Assembly: GCA_014284505.1 (NCBI GenBank)
Contig: JAAFYY010000001.1
Location: forward strand, 1,922,001-1,986,000
Source: Streptacidiphilus sp. 4-A2
GTDB lineage: Bacteria > Actinomycetota > Actinomycetes > Streptomycetales > Streptomycetaceae
Reading direction: 5' to 3'
DNA: 64,000 nucleotides
The notes under the pieces were generated by a model. It searched no databases and was not told the DNA's origin. It saw only the letters and a list, made by a program, of their open reading frames with translations. This document shows positions 7,074 through 60,910 of the stretch, in pieces (the stretch's first letter is position 1; each line of letters begins with the position of its first letter). A program made the translations under genes and the position numbers.

Positions 7074-7082
7074 GAGCCTCAC

Positions 7083-7170
7083 CTCCGCCTGGAAACGCCT
7101 GGGAACGTCTTGAACGTCTTTGAACGTCTTGGGAAAACGTCTTGGGAAAACGCCTTGGAAAACGGTCGGT
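7083..7170 (-). repeat. Tandem AACGTCTT-type repeats in the leader of the stand-alone NRPS
   Basis: On the + strand, seven imperfect units of 10-13 bp follow one another. They include ggaaacgcct, gggaacgtct, tgaacgtctt (twice), gggaaaacgtctt, gggaaaacgcctt and ggaaaacgg. They sit directly upstream of the GGAGGT/GTG start at 7073 and downstream of the terminator hairpin of the TE-containing NRPS, which is the expected place for the promoter and leader of the tailoring operon. An activator-binding direct repeat (SARPs bind direct repeats) or a leader structure is possible. The function is inferred from position only. Confidence 0.5.
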
Positions 7171-7304
7171 CCGACGGGTCACCGACCCACCCGGAGTTTC
7201 GAGACCGACCCTAGGGAGGCGGATTATTGTCGGAGTATCGATCGACTTCCGGCCGCGGATACCGCGGCGCCCGGGCCTGCCGTCCGGCTCCGGACACGCC
7301 GAAC

Positions 7305-7329
7305 GGCGGCCTCCCCAGGGGAGGCCGCC
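7305..7329 (-). terminator. Hairpin after the terminal NRPS gene
   Basis: A perfect inverted repeat, GGCGGCCTCCCC, one A, then GGGGAGGCCGCC, lies 41 bp past the stop at 7370. There is no U tract, as is common in high-GC actinomycetes. It separates the NRPS assembly line from the tailoring operon, so the latter needs its own promoter in 7083-7300. Confidence 0.65.
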
Positions 7330-7369
7330 ACAGTGCGCCGGTCAGAGTGCGGTGCTCAGGGTGCGGTGC

Positions 7370-43351: not shown

Positions 43352-44811
43352 ACAAATGGAAGACCTCCATGGCCGCGGCCAGTGGCGTGCTGGTGGTGCT
43401 GAGCCTGACGGCAGCGGTCACCCCCTACGGGCAGGGCGTCTCCTTCGCCCGGCCGGTGCCGACGGCGTCGGGGCCGGGCAAGCGGCCCACGCCGAGCCCG
43501 GGCGGCTCCGCCCCGGCCGCGCCCACGGGCACGCCCACGCCGTCGCCCACGACATCACCCACGTCATCGCCCACGCCCAGGCCGTCGCCGAGCCCGACCC
43601 GCCCGCATCCGCACAAGAGCTCGCGCCCGCACCCGCACAAGCACCCGCGGCCCCATCCCCACAAGCACCCGCGACCGCACCCCCACAAACATCCGCGGCC
43701 GCACCCCAAGCGCAAGCCCTGGCCGGTCACCCTGGTCCTCAGGACCGTGCCACCGCTGCCCGGCGTGGAATTCAGCCTGGACGGCACCCGGTACACGGTC
43801 GGCCCGCAGGGCACGGTCAGCGTGACCATGGAACACGACCGGACCCCGCACACGCTCGCCGTGCTGAGCACGAACGTCGACCTCGGCAGCCACCACTACG
43901 CGTTCTACCGCTGGACCGGCCAGCCCTGGCCCGACGAGGCGTACCAGCCCACGGTGACCGCGCTGCCCTGGCGCGCCGACCACACGATCGAGGTGTCCTT
44001 CGCCGCCGAGTGCAAGGTGACCCCCTCGTTCACCGACCAGAACGGGCGGGCCATCGCGCCGGCCTCGCTCAGTTCCGTCCAGGTGCAGAGCCAGACCGGC
44101 CAGGACTACCGGCTGCCGCTGAGCGGCGCCGCCTGGCTGCCGTGCACGGCCCCGACGCTCACCCCGTCCGGTCCGCAGAGCCGGCCGGTCAGCTACCGGC
44201 TCAAGGAGCTGGTGTCCGAGGGCGCCAACATCGCCAATGACGGGCAGGAGTCGTTCACCCCGGTCAAGGACGCCCACCCGATCCTGACCGGGTACTACTT
44301 CAACCTGGCGGTGCAGGTCCAGGACGCCTTTCTCGGCGGATCGGCGGGCCGCTCGGTGACGCTGACGCTGCCCGACGGGCGCACGGCGGCCGCGCGGCTC
44401 GATGCCGCAGGACAGGCCTCCTTCGAGCACCTGCCGCGGGCGTCCTACTCGGTCAGCTCGACCGGGGGCGGCGTCGCGATGGCCAAGACCATCCGGCTCT
44501 CCCGGGACGGCACCGTGGCCCTGCGGATGATCAGCGACGACGATCTCGGGCTCGGCCTGCTCTGCCTGCTGCTGTTCCTGCTGGCCCCGTTCACGCCCGC
44601 CGCGGTGCGCGCGGTGCGCCGCCGCGGGACCACGGGCCCCACGCCGGGCGGGGCCGATCCGGGCGGGGCCGATCCGGGCGGGGACCCGGCGGGCCCGGGC
44701 CCCGGGCCCGCACCCGTCGCACCCACCGGCGCCGGACCTGATGCCGAACCCGGCGCCGACAGCGGCGCACCTGCCGACGCACCGCAAGCGGGAACCGAAC
44801 CGAGGAGCTGA
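43348..44811 (+). CDS. Surface protein with His/Pro repeat and single membrane anchor, unknown function
   Basis: An intact 487-residue frame begins at GTG 43348, overlapping the previous stop. A signal segment (MAAASGVLVVLSLTAAVTPY) is followed by a Pro/Thr/Ser-rich spacer. Then comes an array of HPHK units (about residues 86-120). A body with beta-rich, carboxypeptidase-regulatory-like segments follows (VEFSLDGTRYTVGPQGTVSV, SVTLTLPDGRTAAARLDAAG). A membrane segment LGLGLLCLLLFLLAPFTPAA lies near residue 400, and the Gly-Asp-Pro-rich tail is cytoplasmic. The Pro-rich spacer should cross the cell wall. The His array could bind metal (inference). I know no named family. Four-gene overlap ties it to the sugar-polymer operon. 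Confidence 0.75.
   Translation: MNKWKTSMAAASGVLVVLSLTAAVTPYGQGVSFARPVPTASGPGKRPTPSPGGSAPAAPTGTPTPSPTTSPTSSPTPRPSPSPTRPHPHKSSRPHPHKHPRPHPHKHPRPHPHKHPRPHPKRKPWPVTLVLRTVPPLPGVEFSLDGTRYTVGPQGTVSVTMEHDRTPHTLAVLSTNVDLGSHHYAFYRWTGQPWPDEAYQPTVTALPWRADHTIEVSFAAECKVTPSFTDQNGRAIAPASLSSVQVQSQTGQDYRLPLSGAAWLPCTAPTLTPSGPQSRPVSYRLKELVSEGANIANDGQESFTPVKDAHPILTGYYFNLAVQVQDAFLGGSAGRSVTLTLPDGRTAAARLDAAGQASFEHLPRASYSVSSTGGGVAMAKTIRLSRDGTVALRMISDDDLGLGLLCLLLFLLAPFTPAAVRAVRRRGTTGPTPGGADPGGADPGGDPAGPGPGPAPVAPTGAGPDAEPGADSGAPADAPQAGTEPRS
43605..43715 (+). repeat. In-frame tandem repeat encoding HPHK units
   Basis: Four units of about 21-24 bp encode Arg-Pro-His-Pro-His-Lys with His-Pro or Ser-Ser spacers, then a fifth degenerate HPKRK unit. 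Copies differ at third positions, so the array is not a very recent expansion. It is purely coding and not a CRISPR. Confidence 0.85.
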
Positions 44812-44818
44812 CACCACC

Positions 44819-46045
44819 GTGAGTCGCATCGCACCGCACCGGCTGCCCCGACGGGGGCTGTTGTTCCTGGTGATCGCCGCGCTCGGGTTCGCGGCACTGG
44901 CCGCGGGCCTGGCCACCCAGTCCGGCGGGTCCTCCGCGGCACCGCAGAGCTCCGGCTCGTCCACGCCCGGCGAGCTCGCCCCGCTGCCCGGTTCCGTCGC
45001 CTCCAGCGGCAACGCGCTGCCGCTGTTCGCCTACTACTACATCTGGTTCAGCCCGGACTCCTGGCGGCGGGCCAAGCTCGACTACCCACTGCTCGGTGAC
45101 TATTCGAGCAGCAACCCGGCCGTCGTCAAACAGCAGATCGAGTGGGCCAAGGCGGCCGGCATCCAGGGCTTCATCGTGAGCTGGAAGGACACCGCCCTCA
45201 ACGACAGCCGGCTGCAACTGGTGATGCGGATCGCCGCCCAGGAGAACTTCAAACTGGCGATGATCTACCAGGGACTCGATTTCACACGCAAGCCGCTGCC
45301 GGAGGCGGAGGTCGCCAAGGACTTCCGGACGTTCGAGACGACGTACGCGCCCAACCCGGTGTTCTACAAGGTCGGCGGCAAGGCGCTGACGATCTGGAGC
45401 GGCACCTGGGAGTACAGCGCGGCCGACGTGCAGGCCGTCACCAGCCCGCTGCGCGGGAAGCTGCTGGTGCTCAACACCCAGAAGAGCGTGGCCAGTTACA
45501 ACCAGATCGCCGCCTACACCGACGGCGACGCCTACTACTGGTCCTCGGTCGACCCGCAGACCGACAAGGGATATCCGGAGAAGCTCCAGCAGATGGCCGC
45601 GACCGTGCACGCCCACGGCGGCTACTGGATCGCCCCGTTCGCCCCCGGCTTCGACGCCAAGCTGGTCGGCGGCACCGGAACCGTGCCACGCGACAACGCC
45701 CAGGTCCTGCGCACCGAGTACACCGCGGCCGTGGGCTCCTCCCCGGACATGCTCGGCCTGATCAGCTGGAACGAGTTCAGTGAGAACTCGTACATCGAAC
45801 CGTCCAAGGAGTACGGGTACTCCTACCTGGACGCCGTGGCCCAGCTGCGCGGCGCCACGGTCCCGGCCGGACTCCAGGACATCGACTCCAGCGCCCAGTC
45901 CGGGACCCAGGACAGCGCCTGGCCCGACGCGCTGCTGCTCGGCGGCTGCGTCCTGATCTGCGCGGGCGCGGCCGGCTTCGCCGCGGCGGCCCGCGCCGCA
46001 CGCCGCAGGCCAGGCCCTCCGCGGGCCGGCGGGTGGCAGGAGTGA
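44819..46045 (+). CDS. Membrane-anchored glycoside hydrolase family 99/71-like protein
   Basis: GTG at 44819 has GAGGAG 11 bases upstream and lies 7 bases after the previous stop. The N-terminal membrane segment (GLLFLVIAALGFAALAAGLA) is followed by a Ser/Pro linker and a barrel-like domain. It starts PLFAYYYIWFSPDSWRRAKL, then GIQGFIVSWKDTALNDSRLQ, KLAMIYQGLDF, GGYWIAPFAPGFD and LGLISWNEFSENSYIEPS, resembling endo-mannosidase-type GH99 proteins. Glu of WNEFSE and nearby acids are candidate catalytic residues. A second membrane segment (ALLLGGCVLICAGAAGFAAA) and a basic tail end the protein. It may trim the glycan built by the operon. The frame is intact. Confidence 0.75.
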   Translation: MSRIAPHRLPRRGLLFLVIAALGFAALAAGLATQSGGSSAAPQSSGSSTPGELAPLPGSVASSGNALPLFAYYYIWFSPDSWRRAKLDYPLLGDYSSSNPAVVKQQIEWAKAAGIQGFIVSWKDTALNDSRLQLVMRIAAQENFKLAMIYQGLDFTRKPLPEAEVAKDFRTFETTYAPNPVFYKVGGKALTIWSGTWEYSAADVQAVTSPLRGKLLVLNTQKSVASYNQIAAYTDGDAYYWSSVDPQTDKGYPEKLQQMAATVHAHGGYWIAPFAPGFDAKLVGGTGTVPRDNAQVLRTEYTAAVGSSPDMLGLISWNEFSENSYIEPSKEYGYSYLDAVAQLRGATVPAGLQDIDSSAQSGTQDSAWPDALLLGGCVLICAGAAGFAAAARAARRRPGPPRAGGWQE

Positions 46046-49123: not shown

Positions 49124-49334
49124 CGTCGCTCACCCCTTCGGGAGGCCGTGCCATCACCCCGGGCCACGGACGACCCGTCCTCCCAAGCTCTCACGGAAGC
49201 CCGGAGCCGCCGCTCAGCGACACAAACCGTCAGCCGGCGGCCCGCCGGCGGAAATGTCCGGGTGCCGGACTCCGGGCCGATCGCCTGCGCCCGAGTCGTC
49301 CCGCTCGCACGACGGGCCCGGTGGCCCGTCGATT

Positions 49335-49432
49335 CCATTGATGCGGGGACCGAATCATTGGGACGATCAATCTATTTGCCCTCGCCCGACTCCCTGGCTA
49401 GCTTCTTGTTGGCACACGGTGGAACCGTAGAG
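49335..49432 (+). promoter_or_regulatory. Promoter and shared 92-bp element upstream of the MFS exporter
   Basis: TTGCCC (49376-49381), 17 bases, TAGCTT (49399-49404) forms a sigma-70-like promoter about 50 bp before the ATG at 49454. The whole stretch, from the half-palindrome CCATTGATGC at 49335 to GGTGGAACCG, reappears with about 85% identity in reverse orientation at 57232-57322, before the radical SAM operon. This argues for a common regulator. The locally encoded LysR protein is the first candidate. Confidence 0.72.
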
Positions 49433-49453
49433 CGTTGCCGAGAGGTTGAGCCC

Positions 49454-50938
49454 ATGGCCAGACATCCCTTACGGAACCAGGACCGCCCGGCAGGTGCCGC
49501 CGAAGACGGCGGCGACCGGTCGCTCCCCACCGAAACCGCGCAGCCGCAGGTACGGAAGGGGCTGGTGCTGGTCACCGCCTGCATGAGCACCTTCCTGGTG
49601 AACCTGGACAACACCGTCGTCAATGTGGCCCTGCCGGACATCCGCGCCCATCTGCATCCCAGCGTTCCGGAGCTGCAGTGGATCCTGGACTCCTACATGC
49701 TGACGCTGGCCTCGCTGCTGGTCCTCAGCGGATCCCTGGCGACCGCTTCGGCCGGCGGCGGGTCTTCCAGTGCGGGCTGCTCGCCTTCGCCGCCGGTTCC
49801 CTGCTCAGCAGTCTGGCCCCGAGCGCGGAGTGGCTGGTGGTGTTCCGGGTGCTCCAGGCGGTCGGGGCCTCCATGCTCAATCCGGTCGGTATGTCCATCA
49901 TCAGCAATGTCTTTGTCGACGCCCAGGAGCGCGCCCGGGCGTTCGGGACCTGGGCGGGGCCGTGGGGCTCGGTATGGCCCTGGGGCCGGTGCTGGGCGGC
50001 CTGCTGGTGCAGGAGTGGGGTGGCGCTCGGTGTTCTGGACCAGCATCCCCATCGCCCTGGCCGTCGCCCTGTGCACGCGGCTGTTCGTGCCGGAAAGCAA
50101 GTCGCCGCACTACCGCAGACCCGATCTGCTCGGTCAGGTGCTGGTGCTCCTGCTGCTGGCCAGCGTGATCTGCGTCATCATCGAGACCCCGGACCTGGGC
50201 CTGTCGTCGCCACTTCCCTTGACCGGCCTGGCAGTTGCCGTGTGCGCCGCGGGTGGCCTGTGGGCTGTCGAGCGGCGCCGCGCGGATCCGCTGATCGACT
50301 TCCGCTTCTTCCGCAGCGTGCCGTTCTCCGCCTCCATGCTGATCGCGGTGCTCAACTACTCGGCCATCGCCGGGTTCCTCTTCCTCAACACCATCTACCT
50401 CCAGGACATCCGCGGCTACAGCCCGCTGAAGGCCGGCCTGTACACCTTGCCGATGGCCCTGGCCACATCCGTCGGGGCGCAGCTGTCGGCGCGTCTGATG
50501 CGGGCGAGCGGCTCCCGGACGGCCCTGATCGTCGCCGGTGCCGCGGTCACCGGCGCCTCAGCGATGATCATGGTCGGGGTCGGCGGCAGCGGATCGGTCC
50601 TGCTGCTCGCCGGATACACCGTGCTGGGCATCGGCTTCGGCGCCGCCAACACCCGGTCAACAACGTCGCGATGGCCGGAATGCCGCGCAGCCAGGCGGGG
50701 GTGGCCGGCGCCATCGCCTCCTCCAGCCGCCAGCTGGGCCAGTCCCTGGGCGTGGCCGTATTCGGCACCCTCCTCGGCACCGGCCTCGCCACCAGCTACA
50801 GCGGCTTCGCGCGGCCGCCCCGGCTGGTTCATCATCGCGGCCACCGGACTGGCCATCATCACCCTGGGCACGATCGCCTCCCGCCGCGCGGCGCAGCGCT
50901 CCGCGCAGCGGGTCGCCGAGGAACTGCACGAGTCGTGA
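49454..50938 (+). CDS. MFS drug exporter, DHA2/EmrB-QacA type, 14 membrane segments (frameshifted)
   Basis: ATG at 49454 follows AGAGG. A 35-residue hydrophilic start leads to VLVTACMSTFLVNLDNTVVN, the typical first segment with the Asn-Asp motif. ELQWILDSYMLTLASLLVLS and, after an indel near 49745, RFGRRRVFQCGLLAFAAGSL (the loop 2-3 motif) follow. Motif C is around MALGPVLGGLLVQEWGWRS, then further helices up to GVAVFGTLLGTGLATSYSGF. It ends ELHES at 50936. Indels also occur near 49960, 50020, 50655 and 50815. It probably exports a small product or intermediate of the adjacent operon, whose promoter shares its element. Confidence 0.9.
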   Translation: MARHPLRNQDRPAGAAEDGGDRSLPTETAQPQVRKGLVLVTACMSTFLVNLDNTVVNVALPDIRAHLHPSVPELQWILDSYMLTLASLLVLSGSLATASAGGGSSSAGCSPSPPVPCSAVWPRARSGWWCSGCSRRSGPPCSIRSVCPSSAMSLSTPRSAPGRSGPGRGRGARYGPGAGAGRPAGAGVGWRSVFWTSIPIALAVALCTRLFVPESKSPHYRRPDLLGQVLVLLLLASVICVIIETPDLGLSSPLPLTGLAVAVCAAGGLWAVERRRADPLIDFRFFRSVPFSASMLIAVLNYSAIAGFLFLNTIYLQDIRGYSPLKAGLYTLPMALATSVGAQLSARLMRASGSRTALIVAGAAVTGASAMIMVGVGGSGSVLLLAGYTVLGIGFGAANTRSTTSRWPECRAARRGWPAPSPPPAASWASPWAWPYSAPSSAPASPPATAASRGRPGWFIIAATGLAIITLGTIASRRAAQRSAQRVAEELHES

Positions 50939-51045
50939 CCGGGGAAGGCGACCGAGCCAGGCAGCAACTGCCTTCGCAGAAACACACGTTGACCCGGGCG
51001 GCCCGGGCGGCCCGGCACATGAGGCAGGCCCGGCCGGTACCGGCC

Positions 51046-51081
51046 GACGTGGTCGGCGGCCACCCGGCCGCCGACCACGTC
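51046..51081. terminator. Strong bidirectional hairpin between MFS and LysR genes
   Basis: A perfect 16-bp stem, GACGTGGTCGGCGGCC, loop ACCC, GGCCGCCGACCACGTC. It lies about 107 bp after the MFS stop and 15 bp beyond the LysR stop, exactly between the convergent genes. There is no U tract. A regulatory palindrome is less likely because no promoter faces it. Confidence 0.72.
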
Positions 51082-51095
51082 AGGTCCGACGCCCG

Positions 51096-51973
51096 CTATG
51101 GCCGGCCGCTCGGGTCGGCGGGCGGCGCCCATGTGCCGACGGCGGCGCGTGCCAGGGCCACGAAGCGCGGCACCAGGGGGTGTCCGCCGCGACGGGGTAG
51201 ACCACATTGAGCGGCACGGGCGGCGCATCCGGAATGGGCAGGTAGGACACAAAGGGGTGGACGTGATGGCGTCCGACGAACTCCGGAGCCAGGCCCATCC
51301 CCTTGTCGGCCGCCACGGCCTCCAGCCATTCGTCGAAGTTGCAGCAGACAACGGAGACCCCGGGCCGGTGGTCCGCCGGCCAGTCGCAGAGGTTGGTGGT
51401 CCCGCTCACCTCGTTGAGGACCAGGTGATGGTCGGCGATCTCGCCCCAGTGGATCTCCTCCCGGGTGGCGAGTGCCGATCTGGTGGACACTGCCGCGATT
51501 CTCTGTTCGTGCAGCAGCGTGACAACTCTGACGCTGGGGGCGTGTATTCGGCCTCTCAGGATCGCCAGGTCGGTCTTGCCGCGGTCCACTCCCGCAAGCT
51601 TGGCATCGTACCGGTGCACACGCACCGACATGCCGGTCTGCTCCTCGAATCTCGCAATGGCCTCCTGCGGCCATCCGGTGGGGAAACCCCAGGCGAAACC
51701 CACACGGAAGGTATCGTCGGCTTCAGGGCGTAATGCCGCGTCTAACCTCGGCAGGACGGCGCAGAGTTGCTCATACAGCTTCTCGCCGGACGAAGTGAGG
51801 GCAACTTGACGCGTGGTCCGCTCCAGCAGGCGCCGGCCGAGAAGTTCCTCCAGACGCCGGATGTTACGGCTGAGAGTTGGCTGTGAGACGTTCATCTGCT
51901 TCGCGGCGCGGGTGAAATGTTTCTCGTCCGCCAAGGCCAGGAACCCGCGCAGGTGGTGCAGTTCGATACTCAT
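51096..51973 (-). CDS. LysR-family transcriptional regulator
   Basis: ATG at 51973 begins MSIELHHLRGFLALADEKHF. The winged helix-turn-helix is clear (FTRAAKQMNVSQPTLSRNIR, RRLEELLGRRLLERTTRQVA). The effector domain has FRVGFAWGFPTGWPQEAIAR and AGVDRGKTDLAILRGRIHAP. An indel near 51165 changes the end; restored it is DTPLVPRFVALARAAVG and stops at 51096. It is separated from the operon upstream by a strong hairpin (52109-52150), so it has its own promoter in 51974-52108. It is the probable regulator of the flanking operon and exporter. Confidence 0.9.
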
Positions 51974-52108
51974 GCAAGCAGGATATGCGCGTCGCCGGGA
52001 CTGAGCGGTGCGGGCCCTCCGGTACATCAACTGGGCTGCGCCATACCGGCGGGACTGTCCGGAGCACTGATTGCGAGCGAACAACCGGAGGAACGGGAAC
52101 GAACCGAC

Positions 52109-52150
52109 GGGGCGGAGCCGGAAGCGCCGCAGCGCCTCCGGCTCCGCCCC
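52109..52150 (-). terminator. Hairpin ending the radical SAM operon
   Basis: GGGGCGGAGCCGGA pairs with TCCGGCTCCGCCCC. The inner GCGC and GCGC also pair around a 4-base loop with one A-C mismatch between, so the stem is about 18 bp. It starts 8 bp past the VOC gene stop. It lies between two leftward genes and marks the end of the five-gene operon. Confidence 0.75.
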
Positions 52151-52157
52151 CGAACCG

Positions 52158-52559
52158 TCAGACCGCGTCCCGCTGGACCAGCTGGAACTGGATTCCGTCG
52201 GAGGTCTCGGGCTGCGTCCAGGCGTTGAGATTCGGACCCACCGGGACAGGTTCGCTGGTGGTCAGCCCGATGCCGAGCGCCCGGACCGCCTCCATGATCT
52301 GCGGCACGTCGTCGACCTCGACACCGATGTGCTCGATCCGGGCCTGGTTGCCGTCGCCGAGCCTGCGCCGCCGGCCCTCCTCGGAGGTGGGCTCGATGAG
52401 CTCGATGCGGCCGTCCCCGCACTGGTAGAACGCGATCCGCACGTTTCGTTCGGGGACTTCCTGCGCCCGCTCCAGCCGCATCCCCAGGCTTTCCAGGAGC
52501 GACCTCGCCTCGTCGATGTCGTCCACTATCACGCCGATGTGGTCGATCCGCTTGAACAT
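52158..52559 (-). CDS. VOC/glyoxalase-fold metal protein, methylmalonyl-CoA epimerase-like
   Basis: An intact 133-residue frame with GGAAGG 6 bases before ATG 52559. Two beta-alpha-beta-beta-beta repeats are visible: MFKRIDHIGVIVDDIDEARS with FYQCGDGRIELIEPT, and ARIEHIGVEVDDVPQIMEAV with TSDGIQFQLVQRD. Metal ligands would be His of DHIGV, Glu of IELIE, His of EHIGV and Gln or Glu near the end. The sequence is nearest methylmalonyl-CoA epimerase-type VOC proteins. With no CoA-related gene around, another isomerisation, dioxygenation or a binding role is possible. Last gene of the operon. Confidence 0.8.
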   Translation of the reverse strand: MFKRIDHIGVIVDDIDEARSLLESLGMRLERAQEVPERNVRIAFYQCGDGRIELIEPTSEEGRRRRLGDGNQARIEHIGVEVDDVPQIMEAVRALGIGLTTSEPVPVGPNLNAWTQPETSDGIQFQLVQRDAV

Positions 52560-52586
52560 GGATGCCTTCCGTTCGCGCCGGTATGT

Positions 52587-53051
52587 CTACACGTACTCTT
52601 TGACAAGTTGGTTGCATTGCTGCCAGCTGCGGCAGGTTCGACATGTTGAGCAGCAGCAGATTCCCGTCCGGACGCCGGTTCTCGAAGTGATGCGCGCACC
52701 AGGCCGGGATGTGCATGACGTCGCCCTCGCTCAGCTCGGTCGCCTCCTCGGTCTCGTCGAATATCACGGTCCCCGCTCCCGACCGGACGAAATACAGGTG
52801 CCACCAGGAGTGCGCGTGCGGGGTGGTGCGGTCGCCGGGGCGGACGACCTGGAAGGTCATCGAGGTGCCCGGGACAATCCGGTGGTCACCGTCGGGCGCG
52901 GCCAGGGTGAGCGTGCCGTATTCCGTGTGCTCGGCTGCTTCGAGTTCCCCGGCCAGGGTCTGCCACTGCCAGACCACCGGGCTGGGCCGGTCCTGCACAT
53001 GGCGCTTGCGGAATTCAGGGTACGGAAAGTGACTCCCGGTCTGTACCGCAT
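52587..53051 (-). CDS. Small cupin-domain protein (frameshifted at both ends)
   Basis: The cupin core is clear: TTPHAHSWWHLYFVRSGAGT (motif 1, two His, no classical Glu at the usual place), then VIFDETEEATELSEGDVMHI and PAWCAHHFENRRPDGNLLLL (motif 2 with His). I prefer ATG 53051, with GGAGGA 4 bases upstream, followed by an indel near 53020. GTG at 53000 in the cupin frame lacks a ribosome site. At the other end an indel near 52620 would give QLVKEYV and TAG at 52587. Otherwise the frame runs through the VOC gene, which is unlikely. It overlaps the end of the flavoprotein gene. It may be an Fe- or Zn-dependent enzyme or a sensor. Confidence 0.7.
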
Positions 53052-54879
53052 GCTCTCCTCCCGGTGACGTCGTGGCGGTGTCGGACGTGCTCGATCAGGT
53101 CGCGCACGCAGATGTCGGCCTCGCGGGTGAACTGCGAGGCCATCCCCTGCCGGGGCAGTGCGTGGGTGTAGAACCGCGGCCCCTCGACGGATAGCCGACC
53201 GCCCAGACGGTGCGCAGCGGTTCGCCGTCCGCCGTGACCGGGCGGCCCACCTCGTCGATGTCTATGCCGCCCGGCTTGAACGAGCCGTTGGTGTAGGGGC
53301 GGACCAGGCCGCGCTGCACGAGCTTCCCGATCAGCGGCGACCGGTCCTGCTCGGGGTGGAACGCGTCGAGGCGGGCGACGACCAGCGCGTCGGCGTGCCG
53401 GACCTCCGGACCGTCCTGGTACTGGGTGCGGATCGCGAACCGCGCCGCGCTCCGGTCCAGGACAACCTGGCTGCCCGGGCCGCCGGCCAGGTCCACGGCC
53501 CCCGCCCTGATCAGCGCGAGCAGCTGATGGTTGCGGTGCCGGGGCGGCCCGAACGAGACGCGGTTCATGACCGGGACGTAGGTCGCGTTGAACGTCCGGT
53601 GGGAGTCCGGGGTGAGCCGGGAGAACTCCACGGCCTCCCGCAGGCTCGCCCGGGTGTCCCGGACCACATCGGTGGCCGCCTTCACCGGACTTGTCGTGTT
53701 GCCCAGCTCCGCCTGCTCCAGGTCGACGGCCACGTGGTCGAGGAAGAACTTCGTGAACGCCTCCTGGCTGGCGAACTCCCGCCCCCGCAGCGGATCGATG
53801 ATGTCCTCCACCGCGCGCCGGTCGTCCGGGGTGAGGTCGTACTCCTCGGGCGGAATGACGCGCTGTTCCTCCGCCATCCGGTAGGCGTAGCCCATCTCCC
53901 GCAGCAGCAGTGGCAGGACCTCTTCCTCGAAGTCGAGCCGGGGGTCGTTGCGCAGTCGCGTCGCCCGTTCCCGCAGGCTGCGCACCGCTTCGGTGGTGAA
54001 GAACCTCGGCCGGTGCTGCCCGGTGAGGCCCTTCTGGTTCACGCCGCGCGCGCTGAACGGCAGGCACTGGCGGGAGAAGAGCTGGATCACCGGCTCACGC
54101 CCCGAGGGGACGTACTCCATCTCCCACCCCGACCCGCGGTACTGTCCACCGCGGCCGACCGTCAGCTCGGAGATGACGTCGTGCGCGGTCAGCCCCAGCC
54201 CCTGGACCGCGACGGTCGAGCCCGGGGCTATCCGCTGGAGCCGTTCGACCGGGTAGGGGTTGGAGCAGTAGACGAGCCAGGGGTTGCGGTCGGCGTGCTC
54301 CTGCACGAACTCCTCGTAGGCGCGGTCCGCCTGGGTGGGGATCCGCTCGCAGTGGCCGGTCGCCAGGAACACGTAGTCGCTGGGGAGGACGAAGCCCTGC
54401 TCCAGGTGGACGGCGAAGCGTCCGCCGGCCCGCGGCTCGATGTCCACCGCCCGGTCGCGGTGGTGCACGACCCGGACCGAGGCCGGCAGCGAGGCGACGG
54501 TCCGGTCGAAGACCCAGCTGAGGTAGCTGCCGAGGATCTGCCGCGGGAGGTAGGTGTGCTCCCCGACCACCCCGCCCGCGTCCGCGCCGGTGGGGTAGAC
54601 CGCTTCGCCGAACTCCCGGTAACCGCTGCGCGCCGCCCACTCGGTGAACGAGGGACCGCCTTCGCCGGCGAACATGGTGACCTGGCTGGCGACGGTGTTG
54701 GTGAGCAGGTGGCCGGGCTGGCGCGCGGAGTGCGCGCCCTGACCGGCGTCGCCCGGGTCGATGAGATGCACGTCCAGCGGGCATCCCTCGGGCAGTTCGG
54801 AGGCGAGATCGGAGATCCGTTGCAGGATGCTCAGGCCACGTGGCCCCATGCCGACGATGGACACCTGGAGGGCCGTCAT
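53015..54879 (-). CDS. FAD/NAD(P)-binding oxidoreductase-like protein
   Basis: ATG at 54879 overlaps the hydrolase stop. The N-terminal dinucleotide fold is VSIVGMGPRGLSILQRISDL. Further pieces are DVHLIDPGDAGQGAHSARQP, YVFLATGHCERIPTQADRAY (second nucleotide strand) and GSTVAVQGLGLTAHDVISEL. The C-terminal part is FKPGGIDIDEVGRPVTADGE and, after an indel near 53195, VEGPRFYTHALPRQGMASQF. At about 615 residues it matches the FAD-NAD(P)-binding family (PF13454) often annotated only generally. No reaction is known for it with an aminomutase. It might oxidise an amine or act as a monooxygenase (inference). Only one clear frame break. Confidence 0.8.
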
Positions 54880-55714
54880 CGGACCGCTCCGCCCACCGCC
54901 GCGGTGACCGCGCTGCCGTCGAGGACGGGCTCGTGCAGGCACACCCAGTCGGGCGCCCCGGCAAGCCGCGGGAACAGCCGTGCCACCTGCGGGTCGTGGC
55001 CCGGGATGATGTGGTCGTCACCGTCGGCCAGGGCCTCGATCGTGTCGTAGCCCTCCACCATCGGGGTGAGCTGGTCGAGGATGGGGAAGGGGCTGCGCAG
55101 CCGGATGTTGGCCCACAGGTGGCTCGCGTCGCTGGCCAGCACGACCCAGCCGCGCGCGGTGGGCACCCGGACCACCTGGGTGCCGGGAGTGTGCCCCGGC
55201 ACCTGATGCACCGTCACTCCGGGCAGTATCTCGGCCTCTCCCCGGTGCAGCACCAGCCGCTCCTCGTAGAGTCCCTGGACGGCCGTGTGCACGTTCACCG
55301 GCTCGAAGGGCTTGCGCACCACGTGGGCGGGCCCGAGAAGCGCAGCTCATCCTCCTGCAGATGGATGCGGGCGGAGGGGAAGCGGTCCAGGTTTCCGGCA
55401 TGGTCGTAGTGCATGTGCGTGATCACGACGTCCGGCACGTCCTCGGCCGCGACACCGAGATCGGCCAGGGCGTCGACCGGGCAGCGGAACACCGTCCTGC
55501 CCCGGCGCAACGCCATCTCCTCCGGGAATCCGGTGTCCACCAGCAGGAAGTGCCGGTCGTTGCGGACCACCCAGAGGTAGAAGTCCATGGGCATGCCGAC
55601 GCCCGGCTCGAACTGCCCCTCGTCGACGAGGAAGTTGTCCCGCCCGGTCCGCTCGGCGTGGGTGCCGAAGCGCAGCGCCAGCACCTCGTACACCGGATGA
55701 GTCTGCTCGGCCAT
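54876..55714 (-). CDS. Metallo-beta-lactamase-fold hydrolase, N-acyl-homoserine-lactonase-like
   Basis: ATG at 55714 lies 5 bases after the radical SAM gene stop. The sequence MAEQTHPVYEVLALRFGTHA leads to FLLVDTGF and VVITHMHYDHAGNLDRFPSA, the HxHxDH dizinc motif. After an indel near 55340 come QVPGHTPGTQVVRVPT (third His), VVLASDASHLWANI (bridging Asp) and DDHIIPGHDPQVARLF (last His). All metal ligands are present. The closest family is AttM/AiiA-type lactonases. The substrate here may be a lactone, lactam or ester derived from the aminomutase product. Confidence 0.83.
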
Positions 55715-55719
55715 GTGCC

Positions 55720-57069
55720 TCACACCCCCACCACGTCGAGCGGCTTGCCGACCAGGGCGGGGACCTCGGCCGACGGCTCGTCCTCGAAGAAGAACCTGCG
55801 CTCGCCGAAGGCCGGGACGAGCTGGTCGAACCAGGTGGCGGCCGGGTCGAACTTCGCATAGAAGGGCCGGCGCACCAGCTCGCCCCGGCGTGCCTGGAGG
55901 AACTGCAGGGCGAACACCTTCTCGCCCCGGATCGTCGGCACACCGTCGATGAGCACCTTGCCCGGGAAGGCGCTCATCGAGGGGCCGCGCACCGTCCGCG
56001 ACAGGCCGGAAACGGACGCGTAGGCCGTGCGGAAGATGTCGTACGCCTCGGTCAGCGGCAGCTCGAAGTAGGAGCGTGCGCCCGTGTCGCGCTCGACGAA
56101 CATGTAGTACGGGATGGCGCCCAGCTTCACGCCCAGGGTCCACAGCTCCCGCCACGCGGCCGGGTCGTCGTTGATGTGCCGCAGCACGGGTGACTGCATG
56201 CGGACCACGGCACCGGTCCCGATGATGCGCCGCAGCGCCTGCTGCGCGATGGCAGGACGCAGCTCGGCCGGGTGGTTGTAGTGGCCCATCAGCGCGAGGT
56301 GCTTTCCGGCGGCCACCACGCGCTCGAACAGGCGCATGAGGTCGTCGGCGTCCGGGTCGCCGGTGAAGCGCTGCGGCCAGTAGCCCACGGCCTTGGTGCC
56401 GATCCGGATGTTCTGGATGTGGCTCAGCTCGGGCGACAGCAGCGGTTCGAGGTACCGCTCCAGGTTCGCCGTCCGCATGATCATGGGGTCGCCCCGGTGA
56501 TCAGGACGTCGGTCACCTCGGGGTGCTGCTTGAGGTAGGCGGCCAGCCCCTCGGCGTCCCGGGCCGCGAAGTGCAGGTCCCCCCCCGACGAACTGCGGCC
56601 AGCGGAAGCAGAACGTGCAGTAGGCGTGGCAGGTCTGCCCCGCACTCGGGAAGAAGAGAACCGTCTCCGCGTACTTGTGCTGGATTCCCGGGACGACCTC
56701 TCCGTCCAGTTCCGGCACATTGTGCGTCAGCTGGCCGGCCGGGTGCGGGTTCATGCGCGAGCGGATCACGTAGATCTGCTTGGCCAGCTGCTGCTTGTCC
56801 CCGGACCGCAGGAGATCCTGGAGGGTGGCGTAGTCGTCCGGGGCCAGCATCGTCCGGTGCGGGAAGTTGAGCCGGAAGATCGGGTCGTCCGGGATGCGGT
56901 CCCAGTCGATGAGCTCGTCCAGTACGTATTGGTTTGTCCTGAACGGAAGCACATGGGAAACCACGTCGACCGCCTCACGGAGGTCGGCCGGAATACGGTC
57001 CCACTGTGGTGCCCGCTGAATCGACGAACGGTTGTAGGGCTTGTACTTGGCAGGGCTTGAACTACCCAT
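55720..57069 (-). CDS. KamA-family radical SAM aminomutase-like enzyme, substrate unknown
   Basis: ATG at 57069 (MGSSSPAKYKPYNRSSIQRA) has GAAGGGGA upstream. The cluster motif is GQTCHAYCTFCFRWPQF (CxxxCxxC). After an indel near 56590 come DVLITG and GDPMIMRTANLERYLEPLLS, then VRMQSPVLRHINDDPAAWRE and IPYYMFVERDTGARSYFELP, as in lysine 2,3-aminomutases. The PLP lysine is probably in FPGKVLIDGVP. The Asp that precedes the PGGGGK motif in true lysine 2,3-aminomutase and binds the substrate epsilon-amine is not seen; the stretch is GPSMSAFPGK. So the substrate is probably not lysine (inference). First gene of the operon, with a leader of about 175 bases. Confidence 0.85.
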   Translation of the reverse strand: MGSSSPAKYKPYNRSSIQRAPQWDRIPADLREAVDVVSHVLPFRTNQYVLDELIDWDRIPDDPIFRLNFPHRTMLAPDDYATLQDLLRSGDKQQLAKQIYVIRSRMNPHPAGQLTHNVPELDGEVVPGIQHKYAETVLFFPSAGQTCHAYCTFCFRWPQFVGGGPALRGPGRRGAGRLPQAAPRGDRRPDHRGDPMIMRTANLERYLEPLLSPELSHIQNIRIGTKAVGYWPQRFTGDPDADDLMRLFERVVAAGKHLALMGHYNHPAELRPAIAQQALRRIIGTGAVVRMQSPVLRHINDDPAAWRELWTLGVKLGAIPYYMFVERDTGARSYFELPLTEAYDIFRTAYASVSGLSRTVRGPSMSAFPGKVLIDGVPTIRGEKVFALQFLQARRGELVRRPFYAKFDPAATWFDQLVPAFGERRFFFEDEPSAEVPALVGKPLDVVGV

Positions 57070-57229
57070 GCAAATTCCCCTTCGAATGGTGGGACCGGGC
57101 ATCGAGGACCGCGACCTGCCACCGGCGCACGGGGCCGTCCGGCCGATCGACGAAGAAGGCCCGTGGACGCGGGGCCTCCGCACATTCCTGTTTCACCGCT
57201 CTCTGCGGACGGACGGAACACGGCTCCGC

Positions 57230-57368
57230 GGTTCCACCGTTCACCAACAAGAAGCTAGCCAGGGAGTCCGGGCGGGGGCAAATAGCTGGATCGCCCCAGT
57301 TATTCGGCCCTCGCATCAATGCGCTGAACCGGCCCGGTAAATAAATCATCTGCCATCTGCATCAATGC
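57230..57368 (-). promoter_or_regulatory. Promoter region of the radical SAM operon with shared element and palindromes
   Basis: On the minus strand TTGCCC (57281-57276), 18 bases, TAGCTT (57257-57252) forms the likely promoter. The surrounding ~92 bp match 49335-49432 in reverse orientation. The palindrome-like word GCATCAATGC occurs at 57313-57322 and again at 57359-57368, 46 bp apart, and in half form at 49335-49344. It is a good operator candidate lying upstream of -35, as for an activator. Confidence 0.72.
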
Positions 57369-57539: not shown

Positions 57540-59377
57540 CTACCGGAGACGGTCCAGGGCCAGGCCCCAGGCGGTGGAACCGTCGGCGCCGGCCAGGAGC
57601 AGCAGGCCGTCGTGGGTGAGCGCGGCCGCCTGGTAGCGGTACGGGAGCGGTGTGGCGGTCATCCGTCCGGTCGCCAGTGACCACAGGTGCAGCCGCTGGT
57701 CGGACCAGACGACGGCGAGCACCGGACCGGCCTGGGTGTCGGCCAGGGCGAGGGCGAGCGGCAGCGCGGGGCGGGCCTCGACCGGCTGCGGCATGGGTGC
57801 GGCGGTGACGGAGTCCCACAGGCGCACCGTGCCGTCGAGGCCGCCGGTCACCACCAGGGTGGTGGTACCGGGCAGGTCCAGGCAGGCCAGCGCGGCGACC
57901 GGGCCCGTGCATCCGCCGGCTGTGGACCGGCCGGGCGGCGGCGTCCCCGGCAGCCGGCCCGGCGTCCGGCCCGTCGGCGCCGGACAGCGGCCACAGATGG
58001 AGGTACCCGTCGGCGTCCCCGACCGCCGCATGGCGGCTGCCCGCAGCCACCGCGACCGCCCTGGACGGTACCGGGCCCAGCAGCGAGGCATGGTGATGCC
58101 GCATCAGCCGGACGGCGCCGGGCGGCAGCGGAACACCGGCCGCGGGGCTGCCGGTCCCGGCTCGGTGTGGAGCAGACCGTCCCGGTCCAGCAGCAGCAGC
58201 CAGTGCGGGCCGAGTGCGGCCAGGCCCGCGACGTCCGAGACCCGTTCGGTGTCCAGGCGGCGCTGCGCCGCCGGGTGGCCGGGGTCGCGTTCGGTGAGTC
58301 GGCCCAGGAAGTCGGCACTGACCAGCGACACCGCCGCGGGGGCGGTCGGCGGCGCGGGCCGCAGCGTGAGTGCGGCGGCGGGCGCGCCGGGGAGCGACCA
58401 ACGCGCGTCCAGTGGTGCCGGCCGGCCGGGATGGCCAGGAAGTCGGCGAGTCTGGGGTCCTGACCCAGAGCCACGGCGTGCAGCAAGCGCCGCGCGGGCG
58501 CTGACCGGCAGCCCGGCTCGGACAGGGCCGGTGCGGCCTGCTGCCACACCTGGCGCAGCCTCCCGGGCATGTGCAGCGACGGGTCGGCGGTCGCGGCGGT
58601 GATCGCGGTCACCGGGCCGTGGATCAGGTATCCGGGGTCGGCCAGCAGCGCCGCGGCCCGGCCCGGGGCCTGCCCGCGGCCAGGGCCCGGTCCAGCGCGT
58701 CCCGGCAGTCCTCGGCCGTCGCCCGGGACCAGTCGCTGCCGGGCGCGGGATACGCCGGTGCGGAAGGCGTCGCGGACACCGGCTGCGGCTGCGTGGGCGG
58801 CTGCGGCGGCGCGGGCGGCTGGGGCGACGCGGGCGGCTGCGGCGCGGGGCGCTGCGGCAGGTCCACGAGGTGCGTCCCGGCGGCATGCCAGGGGCCCCGC
58901 CCAGCAGGTCCACGCTGTCCGTCTCCACCACGGCGCGGACCTGCGGCAGCGCCAGCAGCGGCCGGAGCGCTCGTCGACCACGGTCCGCGGCCCGGCGGTG
59001 GACTGGGTCGCCCGGTGCCCGGCGCGGTGCAGGTCGGCGAGGAGCAGCAGCACCTGGCGCGGGTCGGCGGCCAGGCGTTCGAGCAGGGCGGGCGGGTCCA
59101 GTGGCCCGTAGCCGAGGTGGCGGCCCAGCTGCCAGCAGAGGGTGCGCACGGTCTGGCCCTCGGCCAGACCCAGGGCGTGGATGTCGGGGCCCTGTCCGGC
59201 GGCGGACCGCGCGAGCAGCCAGGCGAGCAGGGCGCTCTTCCCGCTGCCCGGGCCGCCGGCCACGACGCAGAGCCGGGGTGCGCCGGGCGCGTCGTCGGCG
59301 GCCCAGCGGGCCAGGCTGTGGGCTGCCGCCTCGGGTATGCCGGTGGGAACGGGTGTGGGCCCGGCCGGGTGGCTCAT
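57540..59377 (-). CDS. STAND-like P-loop NTPase with WD40 propeller (frameshifted)
   Basis: ATG at 59377 overlaps the previous stop (ATGA). The N-terminal NTPase has RLCVVAGGPGSGKSALLAWL (Walker A) and QVLLLLADLHRAG (possible Walker B). A Pro/Gln-rich linker follows (PQRPAPQPPASPQPPAPPQP). A helical middle has SLHMPGRLRQVWQQAAPALS. The C-terminal half shows WD40 blades such as VVTGGLDGTVRLWDSVTAAP, WSDQRLHLWSLATGRM and ALTHDGLLLLAGADGSTAWG. Indels are frequent (for example near 58970, 58890, 58660, 58420). It belongs to the toxin-immunity locus by overlap and may sense or scaffold in that system. Its biochemical role is unknown. Confidence 0.75.
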
Positions 59378-60237
59378 CGGCCCTGTTCGGCCTGCGCGGC
59401 GGCCTCGCGCAGCCGGCGCAGGCTGTCGGCGCGCTGCCGCGCGTCGTCCCCGTAGGGGAAGTTGTGGGTCAGCCGGGCGTCCGGGAACTGCTGCTTGAGC
59501 CAGAGCGAGCAGTAGTGGCCGGGAAGGAAGCAGGCCTGGAGCTCGGTGTGGATGCGGGTGACCTGCTGCGGTTGCACCCCTGCCGCCCGGAGCGCCGCCC
59601 AGGTGCGCTGCTCGGCGTGGACGCAGACCGATCCGGCCTGGGAGAGGATCTGGCTCTCGCCGGTCGCTGTGGTGTATTCGAAGGCGGCGTAGCTGCGCTC
59701 GCCGGCGGTGGTGCGGATGTCCTCCAGGACCAGCGGCCACCAGTTGCCGGGGTCGGCGAAAGCGGCCGGGTCGGCGGTGTGCAGCCGCTCGCTGGTGCCG
59801 CGGAAGGCCTGGGCTGCCTCGGCCGGGTCGTCGGTGCGGGTGACCACCTCAAGCAGGAGGTCCAGCTCCAGCAGGCCCGCGGCGAAGGCGGCCGCGGTGG
59901 TGCTGACGAACCGCAGTGGCTCGCGGTAGCCGATCAGCAGGCCCAGCACGGCGCCGTCGGTGCCGACGCAGAGGTCGAAGGCGCGGTCGGAGCCCAGCCG
60001 GGCCCAGGACCGCTGTTCGGGGGCGACGGTGCGGCCGATGAAGTGGGCGTACTCGGCGAGGGCGACGGGTTCCTCGGGGCCGGTGTGGAAGTAGGGCAGC
60101 AGCCGGCCGGGCAGCACCAGGTCCGCGAGCCGCGGCCCGCTGTCCGGGCCGGAGCCGAAGCTGCGGACCCCGGTCCCGCCGAAGCGCTCGGTGAGGCGTT
60201 CGCTGATGCCTGGCGAGGGCTGGGGAGGCGTCGTCAT
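59374..60237 (-). CDS. SUKH-4 domain fused to a deaminase-like C-terminal domain
   Basis: An intact frame from ATG 60237 with AGGAG 9 bases upstream, 287 residues. The first ~150 residues (LADLVLPGRLLPYFHTGP, RLGSDRAFDLCVGTDGAVLG, LRFVSTTAAAFAAGLLELDL) match SUKH-4 immunity proteins. The C-terminal ~110 residues hold VTRIHTELQACFLPGHYCSL and FPDARLTHNFPYG. Here His-Thr-Glu and the paired Cys look like a zinc-dependent nucleic-acid/nucleotide deaminase core. It lies between a SUKH-4 gene and the P-loop/WD40 gene. Whether the deaminase part is active or a decoy cannot be told. Confidence 0.72.
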   Translation of the reverse strand: MTTPPQPSPGISERLTERFGGTGVRSFGSGPDSGPRLADLVLPGRLLPYFHTGPEEPVALAEYAHFIGRTVAPEQRSWARLGSDRAFDLCVGTDGAVLGLLIGYREPLRFVSTTAAAFAAGLLELDLLLEVVTRTDDPAEAAQAFRGTSERLHTADPAAFADPGNWWPLVLEDIRTTAGERSYAAFEYTTATGESQILSQAGSVCVHAEQRTWAALRAAGVQPQQVTRIHTELQACFLPGHYCSLWLKQQFPDARLTHNFPYGDDARQRADSLRRLREAAAQAEQGR

Positions 60238-60337
60238 CCTGGGTTCTCCTGGCTGCCTGGCCGGCACTGGTGCCCGTGCCCGTGCGGAAGAGCGAAAGAG
60301 CGAAAGAGCGGAAGATCGGCTCGGTGGGGAGCGCGGA

Positions 60338-60910
60338 CTACTGGAGTTTGCGCTCCACGTCGGTGAGCACCCGGTGCCAGGCGGAGTCCGGGGAGGCGAG
60401 GGCGGCCGGGTCAATGCCCTCCATCACCGCTTTGAGCCGCTCCTCGGCATCGGGGTCGTAGCTGTCGCCCGCCGCCTCGAAGTCGTAGTTGGGGCGCTCC
60501 TGCTCCAGGGCGACCAGGAAGCAGGCAAGTTCGTCGAGACCGGTGTTGAGCAGGCAGGGCATGGCGCCGCTCTCCGGAATGCAGTAGACGGCGCCGTCCA
60601 GCACGTCGACCGCGACATTGTCGTAGCCGATGCTGCCCACGGTCATCCAGCTCGCGGTCGCCTGCGGAATCCCCGGGTACTTGGCGGCGAGCCTGGTCGC
60701 GCCCTCCGGGCCGACGAGGGTGACCTCGCCCTCCTCCAGCGACTCGTCCAGCTCCAGCCAGCGGCCGTACTGGTTCGGCAGGCCGACCTCGCCGAGGAAG
60801 GCCCGGGTGCGGGGGTGCGGCACCGCGGCGAGTGCCCCGGCGTCCAGGGTGACCAGGTCCTCCTCCCCGAAGACCGATTCCATCAGTTCCCGATCCATCC
60901 GAGAGGTCAT
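60338..60910 (-). CDS. SUKH-4 family immunity protein
   Basis: An intact 190-residue frame from ATG 60910. It reads AFLGEVGLPNQYGRWLELDE, then YPGIPQATASWMTVGSIGYD and VAVDVLDGAVYCIPESGAMP, with LLNTGLDELACFLVALEQE. This is the SUKH/SMI1-KNR4 superfamily layout of SUKH-4 proteins that neutralise polymorphic toxins. It follows the toxin gene by 48 bp, the usual toxin-immunity order. A short gcgaaaga repeat lies in the gap to the next gene (60290-60315). Confidence 0.85.
   Translation of the reverse strand: MTSRMDRELMESVFGEEDLVTLDAGALAAVPHPRTRAFLGEVGLPNQYGRWLELDESLEEGEVTLVGPEGATRLAAKYPGIPQATASWMTVGSIGYDNVAVDVLDGAVYCIPESGAMPCLLNTGLDELACFLVALEQERPNYDFEAAGDSYDPDAEERLKAVMEGIDPAALASPDSAWHRVLTDVERKLQ

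Follow-up and report, generated by a model that had tools for sequence, protein, structure and literature searches.

A radical SAM aminomutase and flavin N-oxygenase operon in Streptacidiphilus sp. 4-A2 and its predicted role in an N-oxygenated beta-glutamate pathway

Organization of the operon

The DNA analysed, referred to here as the window, is 64,000 nt from Streptacidiphilus sp. 4-A2 (GCA_014284505.1, contig JAAFYY010000001.1, forward-strand positions 1,922,001-1,986,000), and all coordinates are those of the window. On its reverse strand is a five-gene operon, confirmed as real, encoding a KamA-like radical SAM aminomutase, predicted to be a glutamate 2,3-aminomutase (55720..57069); a metallo-beta-lactamase-fold (MBL) hydrolase (54876..55714); a FAD/NADPH amine N-oxygenase homologue in a separate clade of the aspartate N-hydroxylase family (53015..54879); a cupin with four conserved His (about 52587..53051, both ends being approximate); and a VOC-family protein with conserved His/Glu/His/Gln (52158..52559). 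A gene for a LysR-type regulator is on the same strand (51080..51973), while that for an MFS transporter, judged by its N-terminus to be of the efflux type, is on the forward strand (49454..50938). All seven had been named in a first-pass annotation, which also described the genes as overlapping or closely spaced. Indeed, the radical SAM stop is 5 bases from the MBL gene, the end of which overlaps the start of the flavoprotein gene as ATGA.

Several of the reading frames are frameshifted. In the radical SAM gene, an indel at a G run near 56585 is compensated by a second one, and about 32 residues between them are out of frame. Frameshifts are also present in the genes for the MBL hydrolase (near 55325), the flavoprotein (near 53185), the cupin (at the start and near the end), and the LysR protein (near the C-terminus), with several in the MFS gene. 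Since the genome is 76.5% complete and the orthologues in relatives are intact, these are probably assembly errors.

Downstream of the VOC gene there is a strong hairpin without a T run (52109..52150, reverse strand; -54.7 kcal/mol, z -7.26, 0 of 200 shuffles equally stable), which bears out the earlier description of the end of the operon. An Rfam search of the window gave no match.

A promoter repeat shared by the operon and the MFS gene

The operon promoter/operator (57223..57334, reverse strand) and a second promoter/operator upstream of the MFS gene (49323..49433, forward strand) are two copies of one repeat of 93 bp, with 87% identity. The operon copy has a LysR-type box, ATTG-N11-GAAT, at 57302-57320 followed by CTATTT, and the box of the second copy is at 49337-49355. 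The box with CTATTT occurs twice in the 9.05 Mb genome, before the operon and before the MFS gene, and nowhere else; the reversed pattern, as a control, had 0 matches in the 9.05 Mb. A box of this type is also upstream of the radical SAM gene in three out of four relatives of the same type (L140, L141, and L029, the fourth being L028), and the LysR protein has 76-79% identity to its counterparts in all four. We infer that the LysR protein of the operon binds the shared box.

Both ends of the region marked out by the first-pass annotation (49335..57368) fall on the two repeat copies. A small peptide (MRGPN...) encoded in the repeat was ruled out, as its frame is lost, judged by eye, upstream of the radical SAM gene in L140, L141, L029, and L028.

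The radical SAM enzyme

The best PDB match of the radical SAM protein is the lysine 2,3-aminomutase 2A5H, and residue positions are given by alignment to it. The CX3CX2C motif, the equivalent of Arg134, the PLP-Lys, Arg357, and an Arg at the position of Asp293 are invariant in 103 aligned rows (P0001 and L015 being the same protein) and in a further 6. The motif, the PLP-binding Lys, and the carboxylate-binding Arg are presumed to have the roles assigned to these KamA positions, and Asp293 and Asp330 of lysine 2,3-aminomutase presumably bind the lysine ammonium group. With Asp293 replaced by Arg in 109/109 rows, lysine degradation, the known route raised earlier as a possible explanation, is not borne out. 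Position 330 is Ser, Val, or Ile in an ungapped reading.

Against TIGR00238 (NCBIfam) the L015 orthologue scores 130.7 bits, missing the curated cut-off of 199.2, which would place the protein in a divergent KamA subfamily. None of the NCBIfam aminomutase cut-offs is reached, the glutamate model giving 87.7 against 650 bits. The enzyme looks like an aminomutase of the glutamate type rather than the lysine type. An AlphaFold model was poor (pLDDT 60.6) and was not used.

In the PKS cluster at L178, a radical SAM gene of this type adjoins that of an adenylation enzyme, the closest match of which is 5JJQ (E 6.5e-185), a structure that we take to be IdnL1; there are also a PLP enzyme and a hydrolase with 3WMR, presumably VinJ, as its closest match. 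Adenylation and PLP genes are likewise present in L144, L155, and L156. Identity between the operon enzyme and its L178 counterpart is 49.5%, the former having Ser360 in place of Val; apart from this residue and the variable position 328, the pocket residues listed are common to the operon and starter-cassette enzymes, IdnL4 itself being outside the alignment. These four cassettes suggest that the subfamily is shared with the incednine starter pathway (IdnL4, IdnL3, IdnL1), in which the radical SAM protein IdnL4 is assigned as a glutamate 2,3-aminomutase. Macrolactam starter cassettes with this subfamily are thought to convert L-glutamate to beta-glutamate, and the same step is predicted for the operon. 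According to PMC11284099, beta-glutamate is shown to be an incednine intermediate by feeding and idnL4 to be involved by disruption, while no in vitro activity of IdnL4 was observed; IdnL4 is used as a marker of 3-aminobutyrate starters in PMC10662134. The incednine beta-glutamate is decarboxylated and loaded on the PKS, whereas the operon has no PKS and instead encodes an N-oxygenase, an MBL hydrolase, and a cupin.

The flavoprotein

The flavoprotein is a full-length homologue of the L-aspartate N-hydroxylase of Streptomyces sp. V2 (PDB 8CP2), which we take to be of the CreE/FzmM type. As a homologue of amine N-oxygenases, it leads to the prediction that the metabolite is N-oxygenated. The Arg cluster is common to both: Arg13, Asn62, Arg266, Arg409, Arg412, and Arg416 are kept in 21/21 operon copies and Arg577 in 20/21, the window fragment stopping short of position 577. 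Trp51, Asn413, and Arg276 occur together in 8CP2, in 5 relatives, and in 3 second flavoproteins, whereas none of the 21 operon copies has Trp51, which is changed to His, or Asn413, which is changed to Ala, Glu, Asp, or Gln, and Arg276 is found in 7. The substrate chamber is altered in all 21. According to PMC10404684, the L-aspartate N-hydroxylase does not accept L-glutamate, and N413E abolishes its reaction. As Asn413 is changed in all of the operon copies, acceptance of a dicarboxylate by these enzymes is a prediction only.

In a tree made without L005, the split L069, L008, L010, L013, and L014, a 100/100 branch has 20 operon copies on one side and 9 aspartate-type proteins on the other. 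Another tree gives 95/91 for the 14 operon rows by themselves, with the long-branched relative L005 falling on the operon side. L008, L010, L013, and L014, four of the ten other flavoprotein relatives, were left out of both trees. A second flavoprotein, with residues matching the aspartate enzyme, adjoins the operon in L028, L029, and L141. A scan of the genome contigs with the flavoprotein query found no relative.

MBL, cupin, VOC, and MFS proteins

The Zn ligands of the MBL protein are kept in 35/35 sequences; HxHxDH and the other Zn ligands, like the fold itself, are features that it has in common with the AHL lactonases AidB, AiiA, and AttM. However, its best score against the curated lactonase families is 76.3 bits, where the cut-off is 360, and it sits among genes of biosynthetic type; the lactonase-like role once proposed for it is not upheld. 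The PDB matches of the cupin are gentisate dioxygenases, RemF, and other oxidases or decarboxylases. The VOC or GST partners suggest self-protection.

The N-terminus of the window MFS protein best matches the efflux families LfrA, Tet, and EmrB, whereas the in-operon MFS protein of L015 scores best against uptake families such as PgtP, all below cut-offs. Since the direction of a transporter cannot be read from sequence, export of the product is only likely. Of the first-pass suggestion of an exported metabolite derived from a beta-amino acid, the aminomutase-type operon stands, now with glutamate as the predicted substrate and N-oxygenation predicted, while export is a likelihood.

Distribution and exchange of N-oxygenases

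Beyond what chance would give, the gene order recurs at 9 further loci of Streptomycetaceae (L015, L027-L029, L137-L141; no VOC match in L137), and the operon is conserved in actinobacteria. L015 is from Streptacidiphilus P02-A3a, with the radical SAM gene at 6005-7351 and the flavoprotein gene at 8199-10040 of that locus. The cassette is also present in Streptomyces relatives and in Gram-negatives such as Pantoea and Burkholderia.

A set of 101 radical SAM loci was compared, made up of the best 80 of 592 from a radical SAM alignment scan, 20 places from 19 of 61 matching genomes (5 of the operon type, 15 others), and L015. Two N-oxygenase families were sought nearby: the operon-type flavoprotein was present at 20 loci, an unrelated AurF-type N-oxygenase at 19, both together at 0, and neither at 62, although these counts are not independent because many of the loci, such as the 16 with AurF in Pseudomonas, are near-copies and some are cut by contig ends. 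In the same set, the MBL protein was matched in 34/39 loci with an N-oxygenase versus 0/62 without. AurF, the p-aminobenzoate N-oxygenase (PF11583), belongs to a diiron enzyme family, different in Pfam from the flavoprotein, and is outside this operon. Loci of Pseudomonas and Trinickia that share the radical SAM, MBL, and cupin genes have an AurF-type gene where the operon has that of the flavoprotein.

Proposed pathway and alternatives

The reading preferred here, with a probability of roughly 0.55, is that the operon converts L-glutamate to beta-glutamate and then to an exported N-hydroxy or nitro derivative, both substrate and product being predicted. The aminomutase would shift the amino group by radical SAM/PLP chemistry, and the flavin N-oxygenase would then act on the resulting amine, oxidation of which would yield a hydroxylamine or a nitro group. 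The MBL hydrolase, cupin, and VOC protein probably process this product, which the MFS protein probably exports. Candidate products are 3-(hydroxyamino)glutarate, its cyclic isoxazolidinone, or 3-nitroglutarate. It is more tentatively suggested that such a pathway extends across actinobacteria and beta- and gammaproteobacteria, with either a flavin or a diiron N-oxygenase able to serve as the second step behind a single radical SAM aminomutase.

The same logic might apply to another acidic amino acid, such as 2-aminoadipate or aspartate. From the Arg at position 293 it can be argued only that the side chain is anionic, the flavin entry chamber is unlike that of the aspartate enzyme, and the radical SAM gene of L175 has CoA-ester lyase, MaoC, and CoA-transferase genes around it. 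However, the macrolactam starter cassette, the only context with studied chemistry, points to glutamate, and a different substrate is considered unlikely, if still a serious alternative. With aspartate, the radical SAM step would only swap enantiomers. Pairing of LysR and MFS genes is common in catabolism, L175 looks catabolic, and the uptake-type scores of the L015 MFS protein could fit import of an acidic amino acid for degradation. That the operon is catabolic is nonetheless very improbable, given the efflux-type N-terminus of the window MFS protein, the presence of an N-oxygenase and its replacement by AurF elsewhere, which fit biosynthesis, and the self-protection suggested by the VOC or GST partners.

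Alternatively, the cupin could link the N-oxygenated amine with another nitrogen, so that the product would be a hydrazine or a diazo compound. Formation of N-N bonds by cupins following N-hydroxylation is described in PMC11705231. The hydrazine synthetase (cupin/MetRS-like) pathways are alike in that an N-hydroxylase homologue adjoins a cupin, and on Rhodococcus pDK3 (L176) genes for a cupin, a SidA-type hydroxylase, and a class I tRNA ligase come after that of a radical SAM relative. Among the scanned operon proteins there is no ligase or MetRS-like match, and none of the PDB matches of the cupin is labelled hydrazine synthetase, making N-N bond formation improbable. Least probable is a nitrous acid or 3-nitropropionate route, with aspartate as the substrate of the flavoprotein and nitrosuccinate as the product, for all the family membership of the enzyme and the aspartate-type second flavoproteins beside three of the related operons. 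The residue changes described above, including that at Asn413, speak against it, and an aspartate-type query matches only the operon flavoprotein within the window. The nitrous acid (CreE/CreD) pathway has a nitrosuccinate lyase in its cluster, whereas all six PF00206 lyase matches in the genome are outside the window.

If the glutamate pathway is correct, its products (3-nitroglutarate, 3-hydroxyaminoglutarate, or a cyclic N-O compound) would make up a new family of specialised metabolites that are small and reactive, and an unexplained operon becomes a testable two-step reaction. It predicts a natural beta-amino-acid N-oxygenase altered at residue 413, the one mutated in the aspartate enzyme. 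Uncharacterised N-oxygenated metabolites could also be sought by mining the genomes of Streptomyces, Burkholderia, Pantoea, and Pseudomonas relatives, with a radical SAM aminomutase gene adjoining those for an N-oxygenase, an MBL hydrolase, and a cupin as the handle. In the open-access literature, subscription papers being mostly outside the search, no such pathway was among the matches listed, in keeping with the first-pass statement that no named pathway has this set of genes.

Pantoea clusters are described in PMC7744662, PMC4010436, PMC9641835, and PMC11350110. The B025670 cluster (PMC7744662), which PMC11350110 calls PNP-4, differs from the cassette in its genes, while PNP-3, of 8 genes and 8,487 bp, may be identical to part of L037. 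PNP-3 is reported from Pantoea only, whereas L036 is from Rahnella.

Organization and conservation of the operon

All seven genes proposed in the first-pass annotation are present in the window as described. On the minus strand, the radical SAM (57069–55720), MBL (55714–54876), flavoprotein (54879–53015), cupin and VOC genes are followed by the strong hairpin noted before, at -54.7 kcal/mol (z -7.26), and then by the LysR gene (51973–51080), with the MFS gene (49454–50938, plus strand) convergent to these. There are frameshifts in several genes of the operon region, which are probably assembly errors, since the genome is 76.5% complete and the relatives are intact. Several genes between 46000 and 51300 also appear to be split across frames, which would fit assembly-wide indel errors.

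Conservation across actinobacteria, suggested earlier as a check, is borne out by two types of Streptomycetaceae locus sharing the gene order. Type A (L015, L027, L137, L138, L139) is rSAM-MBL-FAD-cupin-MFS-VOC, with no VOC match in L137; type B (L028, L029, L140, L141 and the window) is rSAM-MBL-FAD-cupin-VOC with LysR and a separate MFS gene. The operon of Streptacidiphilus P02-A3a (L015) is intact, with LuxR- and TetR-type genes upstream, and the window LysR found no match there. Type B LysR proteins are 76–79% identical to that of the window, while their MFS proteins align with its MFS in pieces at 25–38% identity and look non-orthologous to it. Radical SAM relatives at E <= 1e-100 are present in 61 of 394 sampled family genomes, only 7 of which, counting the window's own, reach at least 70% identity.

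A repeated promoter region

The ends of the unit as first annotated coincide with a 93 bp repeat (87% identity) in the promoter regions 5' of the operon (57223–57334, minus strand) and of the MFS gene (49323–49433, plus strand). It contains ATTG-N11-GAAT, a LysR-type T-N11-A motif, and then CTATTT. The pattern ATTSATGCGN6GAATN8-20CTATTT matches the 9.05 Mb genome exactly twice, at these sites, and its reversed control not at all; ATTSATGCGN6GAAT occurs twice in the window against 0.03 expected. Read by eye, the box and its CTATTT precede the radical SAM gene in L029, L140 and L141, are degenerate in L028, and were not seen ahead of the relatives' MFS genes. Because the repeat precedes both operon and MFS gene, and the box was unseen at the latter in relatives, the window transporter gene seems to have been recruited to the regulon through a copied promoter.

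The radical SAM enzyme and its substrate

The sole aminomutase among the PDB matches of the radical SAM protein is lysine 2,3-aminomutase (2A5H). The FeS cysteines, Arg151, Lys367, Arg323 and Arg357 are invariant in 103 aligned rows, in which the one protein of P0001 and L015 is counted twice, and in 6 added sequences. Arg151 corresponds to Arg134 of 2A5H, Lys367, in an ungapped reading, to the PLP-Lys, and Arg323 replaces Asp293. Arginine at the 293-equivalent position would argue for an anionic side chain on the substrate.

In L178 and L181 (Streptomyces sp. NBC_00334 plasmid), L144, L155 and L156, a radical SAM relative lies in a macrolactam-type starter cassette. The NBC_00334 copy, 49.5% identical to that of the window, is among type I PKS genes, and its cassette has an adenylation enzyme nearest 5JJQ, a hydrolase nearest 3WMR (seen in L178, with a relative in L156) and a PLP enzyme whose closest matches are aspartate aminotransferases; adenylation and PLP genes are also found in L144, L155 and L156. 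A review (PMC11284099) describes beta-glutamate as an incednine intermediate derived from L-glutamate, and the radical SAM protein IdnL4 as implicated by disruption, with no activity seen in vitro. Given these cassettes and the incednine route as described there, glutamate is the best guess for the substrate.

Another relative, L175:4014-17168 (Amycolatopsis sp. AA4 plasmid), is flanked by CoA ester lyase, MaoC dehydratase and CoA transferase genes, a neighbourhood that looks catabolic.

The flavoprotein

The operon flavoprotein shares an arginine cluster with L-aspartate N-hydroxylase 8CP2 and is homologous to it over its full length (residues 3–591 for that of L015, E 4.6e-73). Key residues, taken from PMC10404684, were compared across the operon enzymes of 20 loci and of the window, 21 in all, that of L069 being in two pieces. 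Arg13, Asn62, Arg266, Arg409, Arg412 and Arg416 are kept in all 21, and Arg577 in all 20 long enough to include it. Unlike in 8CP2, Trp51 is His and Asn413 is Ala, Glu, Asp or Gln throughout, and Arg276 is present in only 7/21; all three residues are present in 9 non-operon enzymes, including 8CP2. PMC10404684 also reports that N413E abolishes hydroxylation by the aspartate enzyme. A 100/100 branch parts 20 operon flavoproteins from these 9 aspartate-type enzymes, and with the long-branched L005 included the operon rows alone have 95/91 support. With Trp51 and Asn413 replaced in every case and a separate branch, membership of the aspartate N-hydroxylases was rejected; the enzyme probably acts like an amine N-oxygenase on an acidic substrate.

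A second flavoprotein, divergently transcribed and accompanied by an MFS gene, adjoins the operon at L028:7668-9539, L029:7744-9603 and L141:11052-12923; all three, which are among the 9, match the aspartate N-hydroxylase at these residues. About four further sites with aspartate-type relatives are present in the window's genome, all distant from the operon (G000:C4 5976102-5977925, 2645688-2647560, 937757-939619 and 6552389-6554282).

Exchange of the N-oxygenase

The survey of 101 loci, which include the best 80 of 592 radical SAM matches, looked for two N-oxygenase families, this flavoprotein and AurF-type. Within 9 kb, 20/101 have the flavoprotein, 19/101 AurF and 0/101 both, and MBL and cupin matches are found in 34/39 and 31/39 N-oxygenase loci against 0/62 of the remainder for each, counts that represent association and not independent events since the loci were picked by similarity and many are closely related. 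The AurF loci (16 Pseudomonas and 1 Trinickia among Proteobacteria, and 2 Streptomycetaceae) also hold TauD-type and class IV aminotransferase genes. The family assignment, tested on L078, gave a PF11583 match, with 253 bits against the NCBIfam AurF cut-off of 620.

Within the same set, rSAM-MBL-FAD extends beyond Streptomycetaceae to Rahnella, Pantoea, Caballeronia, Burkholderia, Paraburkholderia, Comamonas and Pseudomonas, and three Comamonadaceae loci have rSAM-FAD with no MBL match. VOC matches are confined to Streptomycetaceae loci, and GST-like genes are near 6/20 flavoprotein loci (Proteobacteria) and 10/19 AurF loci; VOC and GST-like proteins may share a protective role against a reactive product. 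The MBL, cupin and VOC proteins themselves look catalytic, because the Zn ligands (35/35), His 78, 80, 84 and 120 (32/32) and His7/Glu53/His77/Gln124 (9/9), respectively, are kept.

Pantoea agglomerans (L037:4034-17197) and Rahnella bruchi (L036) carry a nearly identical 12-gene version that contains ATP-grasp, GST and CMD-family genes along with a second KamA-like enzyme, a similarity across two genera that suggests recent transfer.

Proposed pathway

The best reading is that the radical SAM enzyme would convert L-glutamate to beta-glutamate, which the N-oxygenase would turn into an N-hydroxy or nitro product, to be processed by MBL, cupin and VOC and finally exported. Searches of an open-access library listed no such pathway, an absence that is weak evidence. 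The rivals are a different acidic substrate, nitrosuccinate formation, a catabolic operon, and N-N bond formation, which is kept alive by Rhodococcus plasmid pDK3, on which genes for a cupin, a SidA-type enzyme and a class I tRNA ligase follow that of a radical SAM relative.

That gene run (L176:6965-13759, Rhodococcus sp. DK176) begins with the radical SAM gene, also includes luciferase-like monooxygenase and saccharopine dehydrogenase genes, with its hydroxylase of the SidA/IucD/PvdA kind, and resembles a hydrazine-forming pathway.

Other genes in the window

A SUKH-4 immunity-like protein adjoins a SUKH-4/XOO_2897-like deaminase protein at 59377–60910 (minus strand), with a WD40 protein nearby at 57543–58091. 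The protein at 44741–46042 (plus strand) has Glyco_hydro_71 and Glyco_hydro_99 matches.
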